Shown in pieces: positions 668 to 63,342 of a DNA stretch of 64,000 bases (positions within the stretch are counted from its first letter, which is position 1; each line of letters opens with the position of its first letter). The notes under the pieces are model-generated. The model had not been told where the DNA came from. It saw only the letters and a list, made by a program, of their open reading frames with translations, and did no database searches. The position numbers and the translations under genes were made by a program. This stretch comes from Gemmatimonadota bacterium (GTDB lineage Bacteria; Gemmatimonadota; Gemmatimonadetes; Longimicrobiales; Gaopeijiaceae): the NCBI GenBank assembly GCA_029262115.1, contig JAJCZZ010000045.1, positions 1 through 64,000 on the forward strand, read 5' to 3'.

Positions 668-1282
668 TTGCGCAAGGTGATGAGGTCAGCGCTATCAGAG
701 GTAGTCGTCCTAGTGGCACTCGCGGCTTGCCTGGGTACCGCCATTCGGTCGATCCATCGGGAGAGAGTTGCCGGCGTTCACATCGATCAACTCCAGAGAA
801 TGGCCAGCCGCAGTCACGTCCAAGACAACTTGATGGGAGCCCAGTTCGGATCCCTTGTGGCTTCGAATCCCGATGGGCCAGATGCGTCCAAACATCGGCT
901 GTTGTGGATTCTTGATGTCGAGCGCTGCCTTGATTGTCTGAAGGACCTCAGTCCGTGGTGGAGCCTCAGAGACTACCCCGGTCTTGGGCGCGAGGTTTGG
1001 GTAGTCGGGGATCCCTCGGCCTACGACCGTGAGCTTTCAACCCTCGGAGGGAACACAGCGTTCAAGTCGAGACTCGAGGTCAGAGAGTTGGTCGGTGCCA
1101 CGCTCCCGAGCACGAAGCTGCTTCTAGACCCATCGGGAGTGGTCGTCCTTTCAGACGCGCGCTGGAGTGAGGCCAGTTGTGCTTGGAGCTTCGAAGGTGT
1201 GGTCAGGGCTCTGCTCTACCGTGACAACGGGTCTGAGATCAGACCCTACTTCTCGCATGGGCGGCAATCTTCAACCGAATAG
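668..1282 (+). CDS. Membrane-anchored thioredoxin-fold protein with CxxC
   Basis: A 204-aa protein with an N-terminal hydrophobic segment (about residues 10-26) followed by a soluble domain. A CLDC motif (Cys87 and Cys90) lies right after a hydrophobic strand ending LLWILDVER. That is the position of the redox site in thioredoxin-like proteins, and the later TKLLLDPSGVVVLSD stretch resembles the second half of such a fold. The likely role is a periplasm-facing thiol-disulfide protein. The start is a TTG behind a G-rich Shine-Dalgarno; an in-frame ATG at 680 is possible. A secreted six-cysteine peptide gene follows after 16 bases, so an oxidative-folding role is attractive but inferred. Confidence 0.6.
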   Translation: MRKVMRSALSEVVVLVALAACLGTAIRSIHRERVAGVHIDQLQRMASRSHVQDNLMGAQFGSLVASNPDGPDASKHRLLWILDVERCLDCLKDLSPWWSLRDYPGLGREVWVVGDPSAYDRELSTLGGNTAFKSRLEVRELVGATLPSTKLLLDPSGVVVLSDARWSEASCAWSFEGVVRALLYRDNGSEIRPYFSHGRQSSTE

Positions 1283-1298
1283 CCAGGAGGGGAAACCG

Positions 1299-1526
1299 AT
1301 GTCACCACAGCCTAGCAACTTGTCGAAAATCCGCGGGATCTTTGCCGTGATCTGCCTTCTGACGGGTGCGGGTATGTGGCTCGCCTATCCGACCTCTGTC
1401 GCCGCCGAAACATGCGACTTCGGTTCGTCTGAACTGCCATGCGACCCAGACAGGGGCTATATCTGGCAAGGCGCCTGCTACAGCGATGACGGCTGCTATT
1501 ATACGATCGAATCTTGCTGCAACTGA
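1299..1526 (+). CDS. Secreted six-cysteine mini-protein
   Basis: A 75-aa precursor with a strong AGGAGG eight bases before the ATG. A signal peptide covers roughly residues 1-36 (positive n-region, hydrophobic core, VAA end). The mature part is about 39 residues with cysteines at 39, 48, 60, 66, 73 and 74, ending in an adjacent pair. This is the layout of a small protein held by three disulfides. No family is recognised. It is sandwiched between a CxxC thioredoxin-fold protein and a beta-propeller lipoprotein whose start overlaps its 3' end by 13 bases, which implies co-translation. It could be a peptide toxin, signal or structural ligand; the sequence does not decide. Confidence 0.65.
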   Translation: MSPQPSNLSKIRGIFAVICLLTGAGMWLAYPTSVAAETCDFGSSELPCDPDRGYIWQGACYSDDGCYYTIESCCN

Positions 1527-2566
1527 CCAGAGTCCGTTTAGGCGTTTTACCGACCCTGGTCAGTCTCGCTGCGTGTAGTATTCCTGAGGAACCCAATCTT
1601 AGCGTTTTGGACGTGTTCGACGTCGTCCAGGCCGTTGCGTTGGAAGAGGCTCCTGGGGATCCGCTCGGAGGGGTTGGAGACTACACCGAGTCCATTGACG
1701 GCAGCTTCTACGTGGCCGATGCGCTGCTCCCTCGTGTACGCAAGTACGCGAGGGACGGTCGGCTGTTAGGTGCCGTAGGGTCGTTTGGTGATGGCCCCTT
1801 TGAGTACCGGCGTATTGTCGGGCTAGGCCTGCTCCCTGAAGACGCGCGCGTAATCGTGCTCGACGGCGACCTATCGCGTGCAACTACGTTGCATCCCAAC
1901 CTAGCGCCGGACACAACCCATTTGCTTAGAGTACCGCCACTGGGAGACCTTTATCTCTTAGGGCGGGATATCGTATACCTCGGGGTGCCGGGCGCCCGTA
2001 TGGCCGGTTTGGTATGGGCTACGCAAGAATGGCAGGCCGTACAAACGACTGAACTCCCGCCACCGGCGAGGATAGCGGACTTCCCCTACGTAGGAAGCTA
2101 CGCCCGCAGCCTCTTCGAGGCACATGGGAATCGCATGTTCACGGGTATCACGATGGGCTACCCGATCATTTCCAGGAACCGGGTCGGCGTACCGGTCGAC
2201 TCGATCACTCGGCCCTCTTGGTTTCGAGATGTTCCGAAACTTGAGATCGGGGCCCTAAACGGCCCCACTGGCGGCGAGAATCGACGCGAGTGGTTCGAGT
2301 CGTTTGACATCGTGGCGGCGGTGCATGTCGTCTGCGATTCGCTGCTCGCGGTAGTCCACGGTGAACTCGCCAGTGTCGGTGCCGCCGGGCGTGTGGTTGA
2401 ACGTCACACCGACCTAACCCTACACCGACTCGACGATCTGCAGGCGGTGGCTCGTCTCTCCATCCCTGATGAAATCAAGATCCTCGACGGAAAGGCGGAT
2501 GGTTTTCGGATCCTGACTTCGGTTCCTCCGAATTCCTGGGGGATTGCCCGAGGCGCATGTCCGTAG
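1514..2566 (+). CDS. 6-bladed beta-propeller lipoprotein
   Basis: A 350-aa protein starting with TTG inside the end of the cysteine-rich peptide gene. Its N-terminus has a short signal ending LVSLAAC, a lipobox, so the mature protein is probably lipid-anchored. The body carries NHL/TolB-like blade features: GSFYVADALLPRVRKYARDG, then GAVGSFGDGPFEY, where the G-x-G-DGPFEY turn is typical of the 6-bladed propeller lipoproteins common in Bacteroidota and Gemmatimonadota. Substrate is unknown; such propellers usually mediate protein-protein contacts. The overlap with the upstream peptide gene suggests a paired function. Confidence 0.7.
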   Translation: MLQLTRVRLGVLPTLVSLAACSIPEEPNLSVLDVFDVVQAVALEEAPGDPLGGVGDYTESIDGSFYVADALLPRVRKYARDGRLLGAVGSFGDGPFEYRRIVGLGLLPEDARVIVLDGDLSRATTLHPNLAPDTTHLLRVPPLGDLYLLGRDIVYLGVPGARMAGLVWATQEWQAVQTTELPPPARIADFPYVGSYARSLFEAHGNRMFTGITMGYPIISRNRVGVPVDSITRPSWFRDVPKLEIGALNGPTGGENRREWFESFDIVAAVHVVCDSLLAVVHGELASVGAAGRVVERHTDLTLHRLDDLQAVARLSIPDEIKILDGKADGFRILTSVPPNSWGIARGACP

Positions 2567-2675
2567 CTTCTCCACACTAGCGAATATGGCGCGCGTCCGC
2601 ACTTATTCACTAGCCCGAGACGCGATGCCGGACGGGCGACAAGTTGGTTCCTGACCCTGTCTGGTGACGACGGTG

Positions 2676-3287
2676 TCCAGTTCGGAGAGTCCCTGAATTG
2701 AGCTGTACCCCGACCGGTGGCTGCCGGAACAAGATCCGCGTCGACGATCTCGAGGAGATCTTCCGGGAGCAGCTCAACGCGTTTGTCCTCTCAGACGAGG
2801 ACGTGCGGACCCACCTCGAGGAGGCTGACCAGGGCCTCGCATCTACTCGGTCGCTTACGACTCCCTCAAGACGGAGGCGGACGGCGTCCGAAGCGAGATG
2901 GAGAAGCTCTATCGCCTCTACCTCGACGGATCGATCAGCTCCCAAGGATTCGGAGACCGCCACCGTCCGTTGGAGGCTCGCCAGGCACAGCTTGCCGAAG
3001 AGATCCCCCGGCTCGAAGGCGAGGCCGACTTCCTCACGAACCAACTCCTGTCGAGCGAGGAGATCGTCGGACAGGCCCGGGACCTCTACGGTCGCTGGTC
3101 ATCCCTCACCGCCGACGAGAAGCGCGCCATCGTTGAGCAGATCGCAGACCGGATCGAGATCGGAGAGGGCAACATCTCCATCCACCTGACCTACTCCCCC
3201 GATCCCTCCTCAACCGTGGCAGAAAGGCAACGAAACCGTTGCGTTGCCTTTCTGCCATGCCACTCTGACAGCCCCGATTCCGGCTAG
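2676..3287 (+). pseudogene. Serine recombinase C-terminal remnant, frameshifted
   Basis: Two adjoining reading frames together read as the tail of a large serine recombinase. The first has a zinc-ribbon end (CTPTGGCRNKI) and DDLEEIFREQLNAFV; the second has the coiled-coil MEKLYRLYLDGSIS with LEARQAQLAEEIPRLEGEAD and SLTADEKRAIVEQIADRI. The shift falls near 2850. The catalytic resolvase domain with its serine is absent upstream, so this is a dead 3' fragment. It marks a former integration event next to the IS-disrupted regulator gene. Confidence in the family is good from the coiled-coil and zinc-ribbon order. Confidence 0.7.
3217..3257. terminator. 16-bp perfect hairpin with 9-base loop
   Basis: The arm tggcagaaaggcaacg at 3217-3232 is exactly complementary to 3242-3257, with a 9-base loop. 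It sits at the very end of the recombinase remnant, overlapping its last codons. It could be a transcription terminator or the palindromic end of a lost mobile element. There is no U-run, so a factor-independent terminator is not certain. Confidence 0.6.
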
Positions 3288-3291
3288 TCCG

Positions 3292-3530
3292 GCCTACCCC
3301 AAGGAAATCGTGACGATCGGGGACCACATCAGGAAACGGCGCCTCCCCTCAATTTGGGGCTGCTTCAGCGAGAAGTGGGAGCGCAGATCGGCGTTTGTGC
3401 GGCAACGGTGACAAACTGGGAGCTTGGGCACAGCGCTCCGGCACTTCGGTGTCTTCCTCAGATCATGGACTTCCTGGGGTACTCGCCGTTCCCGGATGAG
3501 GGTCTGTCGCTTGGCGAGAGGCTCCTGGGG
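3292..3530 (+). pseudogene. XRE-family HTH regulator, broken by frameshift and IS
   Basis: The first frame reads AYPKEIVTIGDHIRKRRL; after a shift near 3345 the second reads LGLLQREVGAQIGVCAATVT followed by NWELGHSAPALRCLPQIMDF and LGYSPFPDEGLSLGERLL. This is the standard start and helix-turn-helix of a small XRE-type DNA-binding protein often found beside recombinases. It stops exactly where the IS5-family element begins, and no continuation is found on the far side of the IS, so sequence was lost there. Non-functional. Confidence 0.65.
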
Positions 3531-3535
3531 CGTGT

Positions 3536-4305
3536 TCACACTATGGTGGGTCGTAGTGCTTCCGCTATGAGGGCGAAGTGAATGGAGGCGGCGAACATCA
3601 CGTCGAGCTTGCCGTAGCGGGAGAAGACTCGCCGCAAGCCCTTGAGGCGCCGAAAGAGGCGTTCGATCTCGTTACGGCGTCGGTAGAGTTGCTTGTTGTA
3701 GGACCAAGAGCGGATCCGATTGATCTTGGGAGGAACAATGGGGGCGAAGCCCAGGTCCATGGCCAACTGCCGGGTTTCGTCGCCTTCGTAGGCCCGATCC
3801 ATGATGACACAGACCTCTTCCTCGGGCCGCGGAAGCCTGCGCAGAAGGTCTCGACCTGCTGGGGCGTCCCCCCACCGGCCGGGTGTGAGCGAAAAGCTCA
3901 CAGCTCGCCGATCATCTGCGGCAACCATATGAATTTTGGTGCTCCACTCGCCTCGCGAGCGTCCAATGGACTGCGAGCCGTTTTTTTTTCTGCCCCGGTC
4001 CCATCTGGATGCACCTGGACGATCGTGCTGTCGAGCGAAACCGCCTCGAGGCGTATCCGAAGGATTTCCTCATCTTGAAGCGCCGTGAACACACGGTCCA
4101 GCACGCCCGCCTTCGCCCATCGATTCATGCGCGTGTAGACCGTGTGCCACCGCCCGAACCGCTTCGGAAGAGCGCGCCACTTGCACCCGTTCTCCGCCAC
4201 GTACAGGATCGCATTGAGCACATCCAGGTTGCTGATCGCGACGTTGCCCCGCTGCGTCGGGAAGCACCCCTCGATTCGTCTAAACTGCTCTTGAGTGATT
4301 TGCAT
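3536..4305 (-). CDS. IS5-family transposase made by -1 frameshift (orfA/orfB)
   Basis: orfA starts at 4305 (MQITQEQFRRIEGCFP) and carries the N-terminal DUF4096-type domain (NGCKWRALPKRFGRWHTVY) and the first catalytic part (LDSTIVQVH). orfB continues with KIHMVAADDRRAVSFSLTPG, then IMDRAYEGDETRQLA, then RRRNEIERLFRRLKGLRRVF, giving the remaining DDE residues, and stops at 3536. The frames join at a run of nine A residues (minus strand) at 3981-3989; slipping back one base there gives one continuous protein ending in RPTIV. The stop codon lies inside the terminal inverted repeat. Both frames are undamaged, so the element may be active. Confidence 0.8.
3981..3989 (-). promoter_or_regulatory. 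A9 slippery site for programmed -1 frameshifting
   Basis: Nine consecutive T on the plus strand, read as GAAAAAAAAACGG in the transposase mRNA. It is the only point where the orfA and orfB frames can be joined to restore the family alignment. IS5 elements of this branch are known to use such A-runs. Confidence 0.75.
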
Positions 4306-4470
4306 CTCTCATAATACAGGTCGCATCATAGTGTGAACAGGCCCTAACGAAACAGGAGGCACGGGTCGGTCCTCCCAGCGCGAGCCACAACGTCTGGAGT
4401 ATTCACACAATCCCTGGAGCGAGTGACGCGACAGGGGGTGTATCGTGACCAAGCAACAGAGGAGTGTTCA

Positions 4471-5688
4471 GTGAGACCAAGAGCAAGAGAGAGTGTTGGG
4501 CCGGCAACCACCTGCGGTCGGGCCCCGGGCCCCGGATGTGGTGCCCGCCGACGGAAGGCATATGGGGTGTTTTCGCTAGTTTGCATGGTCGGTTTGTCAA
4601 TGACGGCTTGCGCGGGCGAGGGGGGACCGAAAGCTGAAGGGGGGCCAGCCGTCGTTGAGCTTTCCGACGCCAGTGCCTCCTGTACCGAATGCCTGTCGAT
4701 GGAGCGTTTGATCGTGGTCGGTGACACGATCAGCACCGGGTCTAGCCCAGCGGTTCTCGAAGAATCGCTGAGTGCTACGATCGACCAACATGGACGCTTT
4801 TGGGTCGGTCAACGGGACAGAATCGTACTGTTTGATGAGCTCGGCCGTTATGTCGAAACGGTGGGTCAAGCGGGCCAAGGCCCGTTGGAGTTCGGGGCTT
4901 TCCCAGGGCCACTTTACTTAGATCCGAACGGCTTGGTTCACATCTTCGACCCTGGTAATTCCAGGGAGACCATCGTTGATGATCACCTAGCACTGGTGGA
5001 AGACCGCCCCATCCCCTGGGGAATCACTCAGGTGGCTCCGCTGAAAGGTGACCACACGGAGGCACTGGTGGCGGACATGCCGGCGCCCGAGAGGATAGGA
5101 CATCCGCTCCATGTGCTGAGTGACTCCGGTATTGTTCGATCAATGGGTGCTCGGACAGAACCCGGAATACTCGACAGACGGAAGATGCGTCGGACGATAG
5201 CGACGGACGGCCTTGATCTGATCTTCAGCGCCGATCGCTACGAGTATGACATCCAGGTGTGGAACTCAAGCGGGCAGCTACTCCGAACGATCGACGGCGA
5301 CCACCTCAACGAAATCGAACCTCGACCGGGCGGCTACACGGATGAAAATCCGCCGCCCAACAGGATACTCGGACTGAGCTACGTCGACGGCAGACTCCTT
5401 GTCTTGCTCAGGATCCGCCAGCAGGACTGGCTGCAGCACATGGAGGAGCGACTGTGGCCCAATGGTTCTATGTCCCTGGCCCCAACAGGCTTTGGTCTGC
5501 ACGGCGTCTATGACACGCGAGTCGATGTGTTGGATCCGGAGTCAGGTACGCGGCTTGCCTCTGTCGAAAACCAACTCGCCTTCCTTGGGTTCGCTGGGAA
5601 CGACGTCTTATTCGTTAACGACTTCACACCCGTCGGCGCGCCGAGAGTAGGATTCTGGCGTGTGACCTATTCCTCAAGTGCCAAATAG
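4471..5688 (+). CDS. 6-bladed beta-propeller lipoprotein
   Basis: About 405 aa. Residues 33-47 (VFSLVCMVGLSMTAC) form a lipoprotein signal with lipobox. The body has propeller blades such as DQHGRFWVGQRDRIVLFDEL and the hallmark VGQAGQGPLEFGAF turn. An early CTEC pair (SASCTECLSM) is unusual for the family. The start is taken as the GTG with AGAGGAG seven bases upstream; a later GTG at 4567 would begin directly at the signal peptide. It is followed after 10 bases by a cysteine-rich secreted protein, the same pairing seen at 1299-2566 but in reverse order. Confidence 0.7.
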   Translation: MRPRARESVGPATTCGRAPGPGCGARRRKAYGVFSLVCMVGLSMTACAGEGGPKAEGGPAVVELSDASASCTECLSMERLIVVGDTISTGSSPAVLEESLSATIDQHGRFWVGQRDRIVLFDELGRYVETVGQAGQGPLEFGAFPGPLYLDPNGLVHIFDPGNSRETIVDDHLALVEDRPIPWGITQVAPLKGDHTEALVADMPAPERIGHPLHVLSDSGIVRSMGARTEPGILDRRKMRRTIATDGLDLIFSADRYEYDIQVWNSSGQLLRTIDGDHLNEIEPRPGGYTDENPPPNRILGLSYVDGRLLVLLRIRQQDWLQHMEERLWPNGSMSLAPTGFGLHGVYDTRVDVLDPESGTRLASVENQLAFLGFAGNDVLFVNDFTPVGAPRVGFWRVTYSSSAK

Positions 5689-5698
5689 GAGGCACTTC

Positions 5699-6172
5699 AT
5701 GATCAAGTCAAGAAATCTGTTCTTCGCTATTGCGGCGTTTGCCGCTGTATTCGCAAGCGCCACGGCCAAGGATCTCGCCGCCGGGGACTGCGGGTGGAAC
5801 TGCTATTCATGTGGGGACGAGCGCTATGAGGGTCGGAACTACAATGGGACCGGGTTCAACATGAACTGTAGCGCCGGTCCAGTTGAGACCTGCGACGGAT
5901 GCGGTGGTTCGGTCGACGACTTCAGCTTCTCCATTGCTGAGATGGCCGCAGTGGCAACCGTGGCGGATGTTCCGGCTCTCGTCGCCGGTTATGGTGAGCG
6001 GCTCCGACTCAACGCAGACCGCAACATGCTCGTCGTCGTGGGGTCGACCTGCGATCCGGATCAGGGGATTGGCGACCTCGTCGTCCTCCCACCGGAAGTG
6101 GCTAAGGCGTTGGCCACGGAACTCAGTCGATTCGAGGTGTCGATGGAGTCCGTCGGACTCATCGCGACCTGA
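5699..6172 (+). CDS. Secreted cysteine-rich protein
   Basis: A 157-aa product with TAGGAGG just before the ATG. A signal peptide covers about residues 1-24 (LFFAIAAFAAVFASATA). The mature amino end is dense in cysteine: positions 31, 35, 38, 57, 65 and 68, including CGWNCYSC and CDGC, then one more at 118. The second half is acidic and ordinary, with a helical AEMAAVATVADVPALVAGYG region. No family is recognised. The start codon lies inside the ribosome-binding distance of the propeller gene end, so the two are co-transcribed. It could bind metal or form disulfides; the four-cysteine CxxxCxxC...C spacing allows either. Confidence 0.65.
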   Translation: MIKSRNLFFAIAAFAAVFASATAKDLAAGDCGWNCYSCGDERYEGRNYNGTGFNMNCSAGPVETCDGCGGSVDDFSFSIAEMAAVATVADVPALVAGYGERLRLNADRNMLVVVGSTCDPDQGIGDLVVLPPEVAKALATELSRFEVSMESVGLIAT

Positions 6173-6191
6173 CCGAAGGGAACGTAGGAGT

Positions 6192-6296
6192 GTGACAGCG
6201 TCTCGGCCGCCGGCGGGTGCCTTCGTGCCGACAAACTTGGAGCACCGCGGGACTCTCACGATCCTTATCACCCCCTGGGAGATGAATGAGTCTTGA
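6192..6296 (+). CDS. Possible 34-codon coupling ORF
   Basis: A GTG-initiated frame preceded by AGGAG and ending TCTTGA, so that its stop overlaps the TTG start of the peptidase gene. The product (MTASRPPAGAFVPTNLEHRG and 14 more residues ending EMNES) has no recognised motif. The Shine-Dalgarno is very close to the start. If translated, its main effect may be coupling to the next gene. Confidence 0.2.
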   Translation: MTASRPPAGAFVPTNLEHRGTLTILITPWEMNES

Positions 6297-7090
6297 GACA
6301 CCTACATACGTTTGGGTGCAAGCGCATGTTTGCAATCGTCCTCTGCGTGTCCGGAGGCGCCTGTGGTAAACATGCGGTGGACGCGGATCCGGCAAACGAC
6401 TGGACCGCACCCGATCTTCGCGTCATAGCACCAGACTCGGTCGTCTTGGACCCTGGGTTCGAGACAATGATCAAGGCTATGATTGCGGCTCGTGGCCCTG
6501 CTCCGGGGCTCAGCCAAGTCGGTCACACCCTCAGTGACCTGACTGTGAGCCTGACAGAGGGCCTCGAGAGCACGCTAGACGGGACAGCGGACTCACCGCT
6601 GCGCATTATCATCCTGCCGATCAATCGAGTCCCGCTTTGGTCACGAGCCAAGCTCGCCCAGGTTGTTGAGCATGAGTTGGCCCACATCGAACTGGCCACA
6701 GCTCTCGATTTTCGTGTCCTTCCCCTGTGGTTCGATGAAGGTTTCGCCGAATGGGCGACACACCGCGATGAGTGCGCAGCCGAAGCGCGGATCGTGCTGT
6801 CGATGGTCACTGCCGAGAGGCTAGGCCGGGCTCCTCCCCTGCAGGAGCTTGATATCGTCACTCGCAGCGGCCTCACGTATGACTTCTTGGCCAATTTCTT
6901 CACTTTCGTCGATACCACCTGGCCAGGTAGCCTGACGAGCGGTGCGCTCGTCGCTGCAGTAAGAGACCTCGGAGTAGCCGAGGGTTTCCTCGAAGCGGTT
7001 GGCGTGGAAGTCACAGAGGCCCACCGCCAGTGGTACGACGGGCTCAGGCGAGATCTCACCGAGCGCGCGGCCGGACTCTCCTGTAAGTAG
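6293..7090 (+). CDS. Gluzincin-type (peptidase MA-like) lipoprotein
   Basis: A 265-aa protein from a TTG start; an in-frame ATG at 6326 would begin right at the signal. The sequence MFAIVLCVSGGAC is a lipoprotein signal. The catalytic site is clear: HELAH at residues 127-131, followed 18 residues later by the third zinc ligand in WFDEGFAEWATH (Glu149). This HExxH plus DEGxAEW arrangement is that of peptidase MA/M1-like gluzincins. It probably cleaves peptides at the cell surface. As the last gene in the cysteine-rich peptide cluster it may process or degrade those products, which is inference. Confidence 0.7.
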   Translation: MRHLHTFGCKRMFAIVLCVSGGACGKHAVDADPANDWTAPDLRVIAPDSVVLDPGFETMIKAMIAARGPAPGLSQVGHTLSDLTVSLTEGLESTLDGTADSPLRIIILPINRVPLWSRAKLAQVVEHELAHIELATALDFRVLPLWFDEGFAEWATHRDECAAEARIVLSMVTAERLGRAPPLQELDIVTRSGLTYDFLANFFTFVDTTWPGSLTSGALVAAVRDLGVAEGFLEAVGVEVTEAHRQWYDGLRRDLTERAAGLSCK

Positions 7091-7285
7091 CATGGGAAGA
7101 CTGGGCCTCTAAGCGGAGCGCCCTTCCTCCGTTCTTCTCACGTACCGCATCGCCCCCTATCGCTTGGCCCCACCTGGGTCCAAGATGCCGGTTGCAAGAC
7201 CTTTTCCGAGGTGATTACCTTGTCGAGGTCTGTTGCGTCGAGGCTGCGCCCGTTGGACCTGGTGAGACTCTGTGGAGGGACGACG

Positions 7286-8050
7286 ATGAGGTCGGGAGGA
7301 CTAATCGCCATCGACATCGGTGCCTGCTGCGACGTGTGTCGTGCGGATCTTCTACGGCTCTTTGCAAGCAGCACGGACATCATTTGTGCTACGTGGCACT
7401 CCGAAGAGACGGTACCCTCACTCCGGGTCGCGGACGGCTGTGCCACCCCTCCAGGCCTCTCCGACGTGGAGAGTTCGGCTGGTGCCCCAATCATTGGCGT
7501 TTTGCGTCGCGGCAGCGACGCGTCCCTCCTCCCGTACGCTGATCCGCGTCTGGTCGATGTGGTGATGCTGCCCGAGGATGGTCGGCGCCTACGCAACTCC
7601 GTTGCCGCATTTGTGATCGAGAGCGCCACGGTTGTGTTGGAGGAAGCCCTCTCCGACCGTCTTACCGACCCGATCCTATCAGCCGCAGTCAGGAGTATGT
7701 TGCGACAGCCGTATCCCAGCCGATGGCGGGCCGATCCGCTGCCCCGACGCCCGACCGTGTCTGGCGTTGCTGCGACTCTTGGCGTCTCGCGCGAGCATCT
7801 GTCCCGTCTCTCGTCGGCCGCTGGACTGCGCCTCGCCTCCTGCGGCAACGGTTGGTGGTCTTTTCGCGCATCGGTGATGCGCTCCATCGAACGGCTCTCC
7901 TGGGATGAGGCAGCCTGGCGATGCGGCTATAGCTCGGTTCAGGGACTCTCAGAGCTCTTCAACTCGACTCTGGGCCTCCGCCTCCGGGCTGCGAACCGTG
8001 TGGGTGCCGGGACCGTCTTCGAGTGGCTACGCGAGGAGATGGTGGGTTGA
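7286..8050 (+). CDS. AraC-type HTH regulator
   Basis: A 254-aa protein. The ATG at 7286 has GGAGGG five bases upstream; an in-frame GTG at 7211 is the alternative. The N-terminal 130 residues are an alpha/beta domain without a recognised ligand pocket. The C-terminal 90 residues carry two helix-turn-helix units in AraC order: [20 protein letters not shown], and then [20 protein letters not shown] leading into [12 protein letters not shown]. It is the only regulator next to the peptide/propeller genes and could control them. N-terminal cysteines (GACCDVC) might sense redox state or metal. Confidence 0.6.
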
Positions 8051-8165: not shown

Positions 8166-8988
8166 ATGTACCACCCACGAGTCTTGGCAGGCGTCCTCTC
8201 GACGAGCGAGTTCTACGGCTGGGCAAGAAGGCCGGTGAGCTCGAGAGAAGCCGACAACCGCCGTCTGTTCGTGCGGATCCGCGAACACCATGCGGAGAGC
8301 GACGGAGTGCTGGGCATGCCTCGGATGCACGAGGTGCTGACCGACGAGGGCGAAACTGCGAGCCGTAACCGTATCGCCCGACTCATGGCCCGGGACGGGT
8401 TGCAGGGTATCCCCAGTGGCGCCGCAAGCCGAGCGGTGTCCGGCCGGCCTTCGTCCAAAATCACCTCCAGCGGGACTTCAAGGCCACCGAGCCGAACACC
8501 AAGTGGGTGACCGATATCACCTACATCCGCACGACCGAGGGTTGGCTCTATCTATGCGTGGTGATCGACCTGTACGGAGGCAAGGTGGTCGGATTGTCCA
8601 TGTCGACCACGCAGGATTGGCAACTCGTGCTCCAGGCGGTCCTGACAGCCTGTTGGCAGCGGCCGGGTCGCGAGCCCGTAATCCTGCACTCAGGTCGCGG
8701 GACGCAGTTCACGTCGTACGAGTACCAGGACTTCCTCGAAGACCACCATCTCACGCTGAGCATGAGCGCCGTCGGTCACTCGCGATGACAACGCCCCGGC
8801 CGAGGGTTTCTTCGGCATGCTTAAACGCGAGGGCGTCAACCGGCGCCGGTATCCGGACCGTGCGTGACGCCCGATCCTACGTCTTCGACTACATCGAACG
8901 GTTTCACAGTCCCAGGATCCAGCGCGGACCCGACTCCCGCAGCGAAGAAGTCAGTACCTTAACTCAACCGTCCGCCAAGACGGGGTAG
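8166..8988 (+). pseudogene. IS3-family transposase (orfB) remnant
   Basis: Three plus-strand frames in succession match an IS3 orf[13 protein letters not shown] and [17 protein letters not shown], then [20 protein letters not shown] with [12 protein letters not shown], then DNAPAEGFFGMLKREGVN, and finally DYIERFHSPRIQRGPD. At least three frameshifts separate them. The second catalytic aspartate is lost, since the usual HSDRG reads HSGRG. The orfA part and terminal repeats are not recognisable. It is a dead element. Confidence 0.75.
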
Positions 8989-27063: not shown

Positions 27064-27280
27064 GACGGGTGGACGTGGCGACGACGCCTGAGAGGCGACT
27101 GCCTGAGAGGCGATACCTGATCGGTGAGCGGTCGGCGACGGCTGAGCGTTTAGGCGTAACCGGTGACACCTGGGCGGTGAGGCGTGACTGCCGACACTGA
27201 GCGGTGGGACTCGAAGGGAGGCCGCACCATGCCAGGAATCGATGAAGTTCACCGTTCCCAGCACGGTTGCTGTCAGCGAG

Positions 27281-27406
27281 GTTCACGGCACAGCCAGACG
27301 AGTTCACGGTACGGCCAAACGAGCGCCCGGTACAGCCAGACGAGTTCACGGTACGGCCAAACGACCGCCCAGTACAGCCAGACGAGTCCACGGCACGGCC
27401 AGGCGA
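27281..27406 (+). repeat. Six tandem 21-bp units
   Basis: Six head-to-tail 21-base units with no gaps, pattern GTTCACGG-Y-AC-R-GCCA-R-ACGA; every second unit is more similar, giving a 42-base higher-order period. Because 21 is divisible by three, frames through the array stay open and encode heptads such as VHGTARR and VHGTAKR. The array lies between the bacilliredoxin gene and a frameshifted propeller gene. I take it as non-coding repeat DNA, but a repeat-bearing small protein starting at 27242 cannot be excluded. Confidence 0.8.
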
Positions 27407-27459
27407 GCGCCCGGGGTCCGCGAGGACCGCGGGCGCTCGTGGTTCGTGTGCCGTCACGG

Positions 27460-28643
27460 ATGGGGGTGGTTCCCCTGCTGTCGCGGACGCTGGCAATTCC
27501 GGGCGGCGCGATACGACAGAGGCTTCTGGGTTTCAGAGCGGCGGCGCTGGGCTCTGGCCGAAGCGGGCGGCGGGGGCGGCTCGCACCCGCCGGGCCGACC
27601 GCGGCGACCTCCCTCTGCGGCGGGAAAACGCTGAGTTCCAGCGACCGAGGCACTATCGTCGCACCCGGGGTCGCTGCCTTTGCTGCCGCCTGTGCGCTCC
27701 TGGTGCTCGGAGCGTGCGGAGGAGAGGGCGACGACGGCGGCCCGACCACCGATGATGCCGGCCCGGAAACGTGGACCGTCGACGCCGACCCGATTGTACG
27801 GATCGGGCGCACCGAGGGCGATTCCGACTACCTGCTATCGGAGGTCGCGGCCGTTCGGATCCTCCCGAACAGCGCGGTCGCGGTGGCGGACCGAACCAGC
27901 GGCACCGTTCGCATCTTCGACACGGACGGGACGTTCGTGCGGTCGATGGGCCGGATCGGGGAGGGGCCCGGCGAATTCAGCCACCTCTCCGAACTGCGGG
28001 CCGAAGGGCACGACACGTTGGCCGTGTATGATAGCGACCTGGGCCGGCTCACGCGGTTCACGCACGCGGGGGCCGTTGCGGGGACGGTGCGCCTGAACCC
28101 AGACGATGCACGGCCGGCGTGGTACGCGGGAGCGCTATCCGACGGCTCGACCGTGGCGCTCGGATTCGACGACGCCTCCTTTCAAGAGGGCAGCGGCATA
28201 TCAGCCGACCCCATGGTGGTCGCGCTCTGGTCAACGAAGGGGGCCTTCGAGCGGCGACTCGCCTCGTTTGCAGGCTTGCGGCGGTACCGGACGGAGCGCG
28301 CCGCCGGACCGATACCGATGAGCCCACAGGCCATGCTGGGCGTCCTGGGCGACACCGTGTTCTACGGCGACGGCATGAACCCCGTGGTGCACGCGGTGTC
28401 GCAGACGACGACGGCCGGCTCTGGCTCAAGCACTACGACCCGGCTACGGACAACCTTTGGCTCATGACCCGCCGGGGCACCGGCGGCGAGTGGAGCGTGG
28501 TCGGTACCGACGGACGGACTCACGCCACCGTGCGGGTTCCCGACGACCTTGTGCTGATGGACATCTCGGGCGACCTGATCGCCGGGATCGCCTATGACGA
28601 GTTCAACGTGCAGCGGGTTCAAGTGCACCGGGTGCAGAGGTAG
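27460..28643 (+). pseudogene. 6-bladed beta-propeller lipoprotein, frameshifted
   Basis: The first frame has a signal with lipobox (AAFAAACALLVLGAC), then propeller blades: EVAAVRILPNSAVAVADRTS, TVRIFDTDGTFVRSMG and the hallmark RIGEGPGEFSHL. Around 28405 the frame goes astray (QTTTAGSGSS), while the next frame continues the protein as DDDGRLWLKHYDPATDNLWL and ends VQVHRVQR at 28643. One missing base between VSQ and DDDG explains it. The start is uncertain; the ATG at 27460 leaves a long pre-signal region. Either a recent pseudogene or an assembly error. Confidence 0.65.
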
Positions 28644-60628: not shown

Positions 60629-61813
60629 TCATTGGGCTACGAGGTATGCGCGCACCGACTCCACTCCGAGATCGTCGTAGTAGACTCCCCATACCAGCCC
60701 GTCGGCCAGCGCCATCGGCCTGAACCCGACCGGGGTCTCTACACGCTCACGCAGGAGACCATCTGCTCCGAAGACCATCCAACGGCGAGGCGCCAGCCGC
60801 CGTCCCGGCGGGATTTCAGCTTCCGGCCCTGGATACTCGCCCACCCACAACGATCCGTCCGACCCCGAGAAGATCTCCGCATGGGTCGGGCGCTCCGGTG
60901 CAAACGGCAGACTGGCGAGCCGATCACGCAGTAGGTTGGCCTGCTCCTGAGGTACCGAGCTCAGTTGGAACTCGACGAACCGGTCCATGCGTTCCTGCGT
61001 AACCACGCGATCCTGGTCCGCCCAACGAATAACTCGTGCCAGGCTTCCATCCGGGCTCTAGATCAGGACTTGCGTACGCTCCCCAGTTCCTACGACCAGG
61101 TGATTATCGGTAGTCGTTGTGGCCAAGAGCGCTCCGAACGGGGCGCGGCCAACCATGCCATTCGCAGCGACTGCCTCCAGCCCTGGAAACTCACCGAATG
61201 TTGCGAGGACTTCGCCAGACAGGCTGATCCGGACGGCCGGAGCTGTGTTCCTGTAGATGCCCGATTCTCCGCGTCCCCCAAGCCCCGCGTCTCCGACGAG
61301 TGCGAGACCCTCTCCAAGAGGGTGTACTCTCGACCAGCCTCGTGGAGGGACGACACCATCCAGGCTCAATACCCTCGGAGCGCCCCTTTCTAGAGGGAAC
61401 ACATTGAGCCTACGCTGACGGGGGTCGTACACTGCCAGGGAGTCCCCCGGGAGTTCGACAAGACCCCCGACGCTCTGGAACTCTCCGGGACCCTCGCCCG
61501 AGCTACCGAGCTGGGCTACCTGCTCTCCCTCACGGAAGATCAGGACAGCACCGCTCACCCCGACGGCGAGACGCCCATTCGCGAGTGGTCGAAGAGCGGA
61601 CAGCTCGTACAAAGCCTCGCTGGCGACCTGCACTTCCGGCTCGTCAGGAACCGCCCGGAAAGGCAACTCCGACAATTCACGAGCATTGGTTACGGCCTCG
61701 ACGCCAGCGCTGTCCACTACGGTAACTGTGCGCGACAGGGCGGCGTCACCACATGCTCCTACCGTAAGAGCCACCCCCGTCGCCGTCGCACACCGCGAGA
61801 TCAGCCGCATCAC
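60629..61813 (-). pseudogene. 6-bladed beta-propeller lipoprotein with in-frame stop
   Basis: The first part (start about 61813) has signal CATATGVALTVGAC with lipobox and blades including VLIFREGEQVAQLG and SSGEGPGEFQSVGGLVELPG. At 61058-61060 a TAG follows TGERTQVLI; the same frame then continues without any shift as SPDGSLARVIRWADQDRVVT and runs to 60629. One base change would restore a full protein of about 394 residues. It is thus a recent pseudogene, a read-through gene, or carries a sequence error. Confidence 0.7.
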
Positions 61814-61898: not shown

Positions 61899-63077
61899 TC
61901 ACCCACTGTCCCCAGGATGGACCTCATAGAGCACGAGTCTCTCCAGATCCAGGCTGTCCGCCTCGATGGCAAAGAACCGCCCATCTGGAAGGAACCGAAC
62001 AGGAAACGGGAGGTCCGCTCCCACCGTGCCCCGGTACTCACCATCTGGGGCAAGGAGATCGACGACTCGCTCTTCCGAGCCCGGGACGACCCGATCTACC
62101 CAGATCTCACCAGTGGGGGACAGGGCAAGACCATGAATTATCGGCACGGTCGCGCCCATCCCGCGTTCCTCGATCAGTTCAGCTATCGGGACGGTGCATT
62201 CTCGTCCTCCGATATCCCACCTCTCGCCCTCTCCTAGCATCCGCGTGACTACGGCCTCTGTCGCCGATTCGGGAGCTACGTCTCTTCGGTATACCGCGAC
62301 CAATTCGGTGCCTTCAAATACCAGGATGGAGTACTCGGGCCCCGGAGCCATCACGGTGCGTCGGCCGTTAGTCGCCCAAACAAGGTCCGCTGCGAACAAG
62401 GGAGGCTGCGTCATCCTCACACCGCAGGACTCGTAGAACACGTTCCCGCTACTGCTACTGACGATGGGTCCAACCTGCACAGTGTCAGTGGCGGTTAGAT
62501 GAAGGAGCCTGCGGATGAGTTCGCCATCTCCACGCGGGGCGTTCTGGGAGAGGACCATGAGCCCACCCCCGTTTGGCACCATACCACGCCCGTTGTAGGG
62601 CACCCCAAAACTGAGCTGGTCGAGCAAAGAGCCGTCCGAGGCAAAGCGAACCAGTGCTCGCTTCCCGTAGTCGAACATTACGATCTCGCCATCCGGCATC
62701 AGGGCGACCGATGATGGGTAGCGAAACTCCCCCGGTCCATCGCCCTCCCTTCCGACCGTGAGCACGTGCCGACCGTCTGACTCGAACACGCTCACCTGAC
62801 TCGATTGTCGGTCAAGCACGGCTACTCGGCCAGCTTCACCAACGCTGACCCCCGAGGGGTCGATCTGGTAGAACGACTCGGGCCCCGAAGCCTCTCCACC
62901 GAGCTGGAGCACGCGATTGAGGGAGAGTGGATAGACGACGTCTTCACCGACGCTAGCAACGAGTTCCACACCTGCCGAATCCATACGCGTTGCCGCAATC
63001 GGGCGGGGAGTTCCGTCCGCGCAAGCGGCTACCAACACCGCTATCCCAGCCAAGGCCACACGCCCTAACCGACTCAT
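61899..63077 (-). CDS. 6-bladed beta-propeller lipoprotein
   Basis: A 392-aa intact member. GGAGAGGGTG precedes the ATG; the signal VALAGIAVLVAAC ends in a lipobox. Blades carry VSVGEAGRVAVLDRQSSQVS, VFESDGRHVLTVGREG, the DGPGEFRYPSSVALMPDGEI hallmark, and HGLALSPTGEIWVDRVVPGS. Two cysteines (ESCGVRM, GRECTVP) may pair. It is adjacent to the nonsense-mutated paralogue, 86 bases upstream on the same strand. Confidence 0.8.
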   Translation of the reverse strand: MSRLGRVALAGIAVLVAACADGTPRPIAATRMDSAGVELVASVGEDVVYPLSLNRVLQLGGEASGPESFYQIDPSGVSVGEAGRVAVLDRQSSQVSVFESDGRHVLTVGREGDGPGEFRYPSSVALMPDGEIVMFDYGKRALVRFASDGSLLDQLSFGVPYNGRGMVPNGGGLMVLSQNAPRGDGELIRRLLHLTATDTVQVGPIVSSSSGNVFYESCGVRMTQPPLFAADLVWATNGRRTVMAPGPEYSILVFEGTELVAVYRRDVAPESATEAVVTRMLGEGERWDIGGRECTVPIAELIEERGMGATVPIIHGLALSPTGEIWVDRVVPGSEERVVDLLAPDGEYRGTVGADLPFPVRFLPDGRFFAIEADSLDLERLVLYEVHPGDSG

Positions 63078-63342
63078 CTCACCCTCTCCTTCTTCACGCG
63101 GGTTGCCTGCTCCTTGTGAGAACACTGAACACAAGAGAGTTGCCTGAGTCACCTCCGCCGACATGTCTCGTCATCCCTCCCCCGTCGCCATAACGTTCTA
63201 AGCTACCGGCGCGGCTGAGCGAAAGCGAAGCCATGATTCACCGGAGTGAGCAAAGCGAACGCAGGCGGCAACTGTTACACGGCGTTGCATCCACCCAGCT
63301 CGGGCACTCCACCTTCGACCCGCCAGCTCGATTGCCTCACGC

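Follow-up and report, generated by a model that had tools for sequence, protein, structure and literature searches.

A conserved thioredoxin, six-cysteine peptide and propeller lipoprotein unit in Gemmatimonadota

Introduction

Bacterial propeller proteins are encoded beside small secreted partners in several settings. In Bacteroidota, NVEALA peptides (PF14055) adjoin six-bladed propeller lipoproteins. In the methylamine dehydrogenase cluster (MauA/MauB/MauD), a cysteine-rich small secreted subunit is combined with a propeller and a thioredoxin-fold helper. Membrane-anchored thioredoxins such as ResA, CcmG and TlpA usually reduce their targets, and the beta-propeller fold is also that of AztD. 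Among cysteine-rich peptides, the beta-defensin framework follows the order C-C-C-C-CC with six residues before the CC pair.

Here, a related arrangement is described from a Gemmatimonadota genome of 5.45 Mb, in the opening 64 kb of its contig C45 (the window, meaning the whole stretch analysed). As in the NVEALA pairs, module A places the gene for a short exported peptide, variable in its mature part, beside that of a propeller lipoprotein; unlike them, it features a six-cysteine framework and has a dedicated thioredoxin gene as a constant member. Moreover, PF14055 has no match in this genome at E<=1, in keeping with the preliminary description, which proposed a system analogous to but different from that of Bacteroidota. 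No description of a thioredoxin/six-cysteine peptide/propeller unit was found in literature searches.

Results and discussion

Two conserved units in the window

The seven genes that the preliminary description joined into a single locus all have open reading frames at their proposed positions, and none exceeds the Pfam or NCBIfam cut-offs. Judged by sequence conservation in other genomes, they are two units and not one: module A (668-2566) and module B (4423-7090) are each kept separately elsewhere (Table 1). The two are regarded as separate because module B occurs without module A in genome G177, while G140 has both on different contigs. Module A starts 667 nt from the contig edge, which is also the window edge, and its genes are tightly packed, with a 16-nt gap between thioredoxin and peptide and a 13-nt overlap at the peptide 3' end, inside which the propeller gene prop1 begins, as had been noticed. 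The ribosome sites and overlaps said to tie all members together thus hold for the packing of module A and for the AGGAGG sites, but the series is interrupted at 2567-4422 by an IS4/5-family transposase and recombinase-like remains. Together with the IS3-type fragments, these bear out the mobile elements noted around the locus. The GC content of both modules is about 59-60%, against 66-68% for window positions 9001-64000.

Table 1. Features of the window and of the f9 operons (L, locus; positions of L entries are those of the locus)
Feature	Position	Strand	Basis or remarks
Membrane-anchored ResA/TlpA-type thioredoxin-fold protein (module A, gene 1)	668-1282	+	AlphaFold2 and Foldseek; homologs in 12 other intact loci
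Secreted acidic 75-aa peptide (module A, gene 2)	1299-1526	+	Six mature Cys, C-x8-C-x11-C-x5-C-x6-CC; AGGAGG site
NHL-type propeller lipoprotein, prop1 (module A, gene 3)	1514-2566	+	TTG start, lipobox LAAC; profile match
Recombinase-like remains	about 2698-3287	+	Inspection alone; outside both modules
IS4/5-family transposase, two ORFs	3536-4305	-	PF13340 E 6.8e-23, PF01609 E 3.4e-10; outside both modules
Six-bladed propeller lipoprotein, prop2	4423-5688	+	About 30% identical to G177, G140 and G164 proteins
Secreted Cys-rich protein, cys2	5699-6172	+	CGxxCxxC N-part, C-terminal part with one Cys; AGGAGG site
Gluzincin (HELAH...E) lipoprotein, Peptidase_MA-like	6293-7090	+	HExxH...E
AraC-type regulator	7211-8050	+	HTH_18 E 0.0025, under cut-off
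IS3-type transposase fragments, region boundary	8213-8988	+	PF00665 E 3.6e-22, PF13276 E 2.7e-13
f9 operon, L121	1968-5873
f9 operon, L221	4913-8931
f9 operon, L222	5677-9609
f9 operon, L226	5682-9619

The second propeller, the Cys-rich secreted protein and the gluzincin lipoprotein of the preliminary description were all recovered, and by sequence they make up a distinct unit on a similar plan, which has a Cys-rich protein, a propeller and a protease to itself. The true start of prop2 is probably internal, giving the leader ...MVGLSMTAC, and its G177 relative exceeds the PF17170 cut-off. Homologs of cys2 adjoin prop2-type propellers in G177, G140, G164 and G033; contig C69 of the window's genome also has a similar protein beside a propeller. 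Gluzincin homologs close the module in G177 (36% identical) and G140 (31%), the former matching PF13485 (E 8e-6).

Nearness in the window is what speaks for a single seven-gene locus with the 75-aa peptide processed by the gluzincin. This reading is very unlikely, with module B and its protease standing alone in G177, the G140 modules lying on different contigs and IS5/recombinase debris separating the modules in the window. The protease had been counted as part of the peptide system; it travels instead with prop2 and cys2, in G177 and G140 loci that lack the peptide, and the separate conservation of the two modules contradicts a single locus, so that processing is not supported. Likewise, control of the peptide system by the AraC-type regulator was not upheld: the gene lies outside both units, is conserved with neither, and has no homolog in the module loci of other genomes. 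A relative of it is found on contig C53 of the same genome (L173 2853-3137), about 400 nt from another propeller, which may be chance.

Components of module A

The first gene encodes an N-terminal membrane helix and a CLDC motif, as expected for the membrane CxxC thioredoxin-fold protein proposed earlier. Its AlphaFold2 model (pLDDT 80) matches ResA/TlpA/DsbE structures in Foldseek with an E of 8e-6. Module A thioredoxins carry three conserved cysteines, the third in C[GA]WSF. They share the fold, the N-terminal membrane anchor and the CxxC of ResA/TlpA/CcmG proteins, but differ in this extra cysteine, in matching no Pfam or NCBIfam family, and in always having a propeller, and almost always a peptide, as neighbour. 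A thioredoxin profile gave 13 matches over most of its length and two truncated ones (E<=1e-6); all 15 adjoin a propeller, and an intact peptide ORF is present in 14 of these loci. No thioredoxin relatives were found in viral contigs.

The second gene specifies the 75-aa secreted peptide with six cysteines that had been predicted, with a Sec-type leader, a mature part of about 40 aa holding all six, and a strong Shine-Dalgarno sequence. In an alignment of 12 peptides the invariant columns are exactly six, all cysteine, and 11 of the 12 follow the spacing C-x(2-10)-C-x(7-15)-C-x(4-5)-C-x6-CC, the exception being the G045 peptide with two extra cysteines. All are acidic, with net mature charges of -2 to -9 over 12 loci; for G095 and G216 the charge was counted from a leader cysteine, so that part of the leader enters both the values and the first spacing of these two. 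The cysteine order and the x6 before the CC pair are shared with beta-defensins, to which homology is not claimed: the long loop lies between C2 and C3 rather than C3 and C4, and the peptide is strongly acidic. A cationic defensin-like antimicrobial peptide was rejected on this net charge and on the differing loop lengths.

None of the 12 peptides exceeds a Pfam cut-off, nor was an NCBIfam family found. AlphaFold2 modelled the peptide with low confidence (pLDDT 61), and a search of solved structures with an early three-sequence profile gave no match. Since dN/dS over the whole peptide is 0.32-0.43 in four close pairs, the peptide is taken as a coding gene under constraint. By this sequence measure, close pairs are under purifying selection and rapid change occurs over long distances only; diversifying selection was rejected, the values being below 0.5 in all four pairs.

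The motif CY..DG..Y....CC of the peptide resembles the methylamine dehydrogenase light chain, and the coincidence of three part types (Cys-rich light chain, propeller heavy chain and thioredoxin-like MauD) would allow the peptide to be the small disulfide-rich subunit of such a quinoprotein enzyme. This is extremely improbable, as PF02975 matches no peptide and no module gene in the genome, and the TTQ cofactor tryptophan pair is not conserved. Tryptophan is lost in several peptides and invariant in none of the columns of the 12 aligned sequences, the mature peptide is only about 40 aa long, and the propeller matches NHL proteins, not the heavy chain. Methylamine dehydrogenase was therefore rejected.

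The module A propeller profile finds NHL propellers in the PDB (best E 6e-21). Blade repeats and a lipobox can both be recognised in the sequence, the lipobox cysteine being near-invariant in a 14-member alignment. The blades match those of NHL-repeat six-bladed propellers, but the protein differs in being a lipoprotein, in showing a single clear blade motif and in its divergence from PF17170.

Recurrence, decay and possible exchange of module A

The first peptide search in relatives found three matches, two of them strong and the third weaker, each between thioredoxin-like and propeller genes. Further loci were then located with a profile built from five thioredoxin proteins, and peptides were read out in nearly every gap. 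Weak single-query peptide matches (E 0.01-1) are mostly chance and were left out, while two weak profile matches (G140, G143) were retained because the adjoining genes agree. The thioredoxin-peptide-propeller order is kept in 13 intact loci of 12 genomes (the window and 12 other loci), in two bacterial families, which exceeds what chance would give, so that the peptide-propeller adjacency on which the preliminary description had staked its proposal is conserved. The thirteenth unit, in G043, is more distant. Partly decayed copies turned up as well. In whole-family searches, 11 of the 121 genomes in the window's family were positive, as were 2 of 35 in that of G140, both Gemmatimonadota. A genome-contig scan returned eight module A loci, all in Gemmatimonadota MAGs and none additional to those counted. 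In the 12 loci measured, with start codons picked by eye, the peptide begins -4 to +49 nt from the thioredoxin stop, and the propeller -61 to +113 nt from the stop of the peptide.

Some copies are damaged. In G100 the thioredoxin is broken by an internal deletion, the peptide is intact and the propeller is kept; on G143 contig C54 the thioredoxin is truncated, the peptide lacks its middle and the propeller is present. A copy on contig C72 of the window's genome, excluded from the intact units, has either decayed or been misassembled: of its peptide no more than the C-terminal CC motif can be recognised, and at a C-run the propeller leader falls out of frame. A second propeller-like lipoprotein lies 3' of module A in G216 and G095 (L045 4713-5552 and L043 114-1049); it is absent in the window, where mobile-element remains are found instead.

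The thioredoxin and the propeller appear to travel together, because their trees give matching sub-clades. Proteins of G053, G088 and G374, from the window's family, group nearer to those of G140 and G143, from the other family, than to the window's own. This family-crossing pattern and the patchy occurrence fit exchange of the unit, and equally old subtypes with vertical inheritance and loss.

Proposed mechanism

Conservation in sequence supports a dedicated redox gene and the pairing of peptide and propeller. The leading reading, held at about even odds, is that 668-2566 is expressed as one conserved unit whose product has two extracytoplasmic parts, a disulfide-bonded peptide and its cognate propeller, and is served by the thioredoxin. 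The peptide would be exported via its Sec signal, and its six invariant cysteines would pair into three disulfides. The membrane thioredoxin encoded upstream, with its ResA/TlpA-type fold and constant linkage, may make, edit or keep these bonds. The propeller lipoprotein, whose start overlaps or abuts the peptide stop, would be the cognate partner at the membrane or the cell surface, where the linkage suggests that it may hold the peptide as a small subunit or ligand. Free change outside the cysteines over long distances would follow from each peptide being matched to a particular propeller or target. The damaged G100 and G143 copies and the usual reductant role of ResA, CcmG and TlpA speak against this model.

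Secretion, a disulfide-type framework, high variability between distant loci and patchiness among relatives would also suit an effector or signal of bacteriocin or pheromone type, which the thioredoxin folds before release and for which the propeller acts as receptor or immunity protein. An ABC transporter in the operon of f9 genomes agrees with this. However, that transporter is confined to the distant f9 type, and module A loci hold no exporter or processing protease gene; their acidity sets the peptides apart from most membrane-active bacteriocins, and selection in close relatives is purifying rather than diversifying. Such an effector is accordingly rated as unlikely.

The thioredoxin might instead hold the peptide cysteines reduced, by analogy, because ResA, CcmG and TlpA proteins are usually reductants. 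The peptide would then be a metal or redox carrier passing metal or electrons to the propeller. The Foldseek matches to ResA/TlpA/CcmG folds and the acidic, Cys-rich character with a vicinal CC are in line with this, and parallels are offered by TlpA/Sco-type proteins for copper and AztD for zinc, the latter a zinc-transferring protein (PMC6689063). Nevertheless, six unpaired cysteines across a secreted peptide would be unusual, the module includes no metal transporter gene and the loops between cysteines vary freely, which makes a carrier quite unlikely.

A wider pattern of propellers and Cys-rich microproteins

More widely, of 47 propellers picked without regard to this question, 8 have a small secreted Cys-rich ORF (at least 4 mature Cys) beside them; for other genes the figure is 2 of 83 (Fisher p 0.0045; the window's two pairs excluded). 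The count used a crude home-made signal-peptide rule on loci from mixed searches. The adjoining peptides are of several types. In G012, a thioredoxin gene is followed by an 8-Cys peptide and then a propeller. Among f9 thioredoxin relatives, 17 of 30 have a small secreted Cys-rich ORF close downstream. Because the f9 and G012 loci share the gene order, the thioredoxin-microprotein-propeller plan recurs with unrelated peptides; these related loci are from the same class as the module A hosts. This recurrence and the count of secreted ORFs beside propellers both speak for the proposed mechanism.

Several further loci were observed. Four f9 genomes encode a ResA-like thioredoxin, two tandem 6-Cys microproteins of the CxxxC type, a propeller lipoprotein, an ABC ATPase and an ABC permease (Table 1). 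One or two 8-Cys secreted peptides follow the thioredoxin at L215 4495-5457, L216 4434-6086 and L229 4259-6467, and in L229 a propeller comes directly after these genes. The window's own genome (G000) contains 43 propeller-like stretches, a large expansion. Three further propellers lie in the window (27184-28467, plus strand; 61058-61813 and 61899-63164, minus strand), and those on contigs C27 (L154 1102-2373) and C37 (L158 751-1992) have unrelated secreted ORFs with 6-7 cysteines just upstream.

Conclusion

Cys-rich secreted microproteins are easily overlooked in annotation. A conserved unit in which a peptide comes with both a disulfide enzyme and a partner of surface type offers a handle on the role of the many propeller lipoproteins of Gemmatimonadota, and its loci are a ready source of natural pairs with which peptide-propeller binding can be tested. 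Because the module occurs in at least one symbiont of a sponge (bin43, Aplysina aerophoba; PMC5649159), its part in contact with a host or with neighbouring cells can also be tested. It is tentatively suggested, at somewhat less than even confidence, that Gemmatimonadota across the phylum may build surface complexes from interchangeable, unrelated disulfide-rich microproteins and diversified propeller lipoproteins with dedicated thioredoxins, which would represent an undescribed recognition or antagonism system in marine and sponge-associated bacteria.
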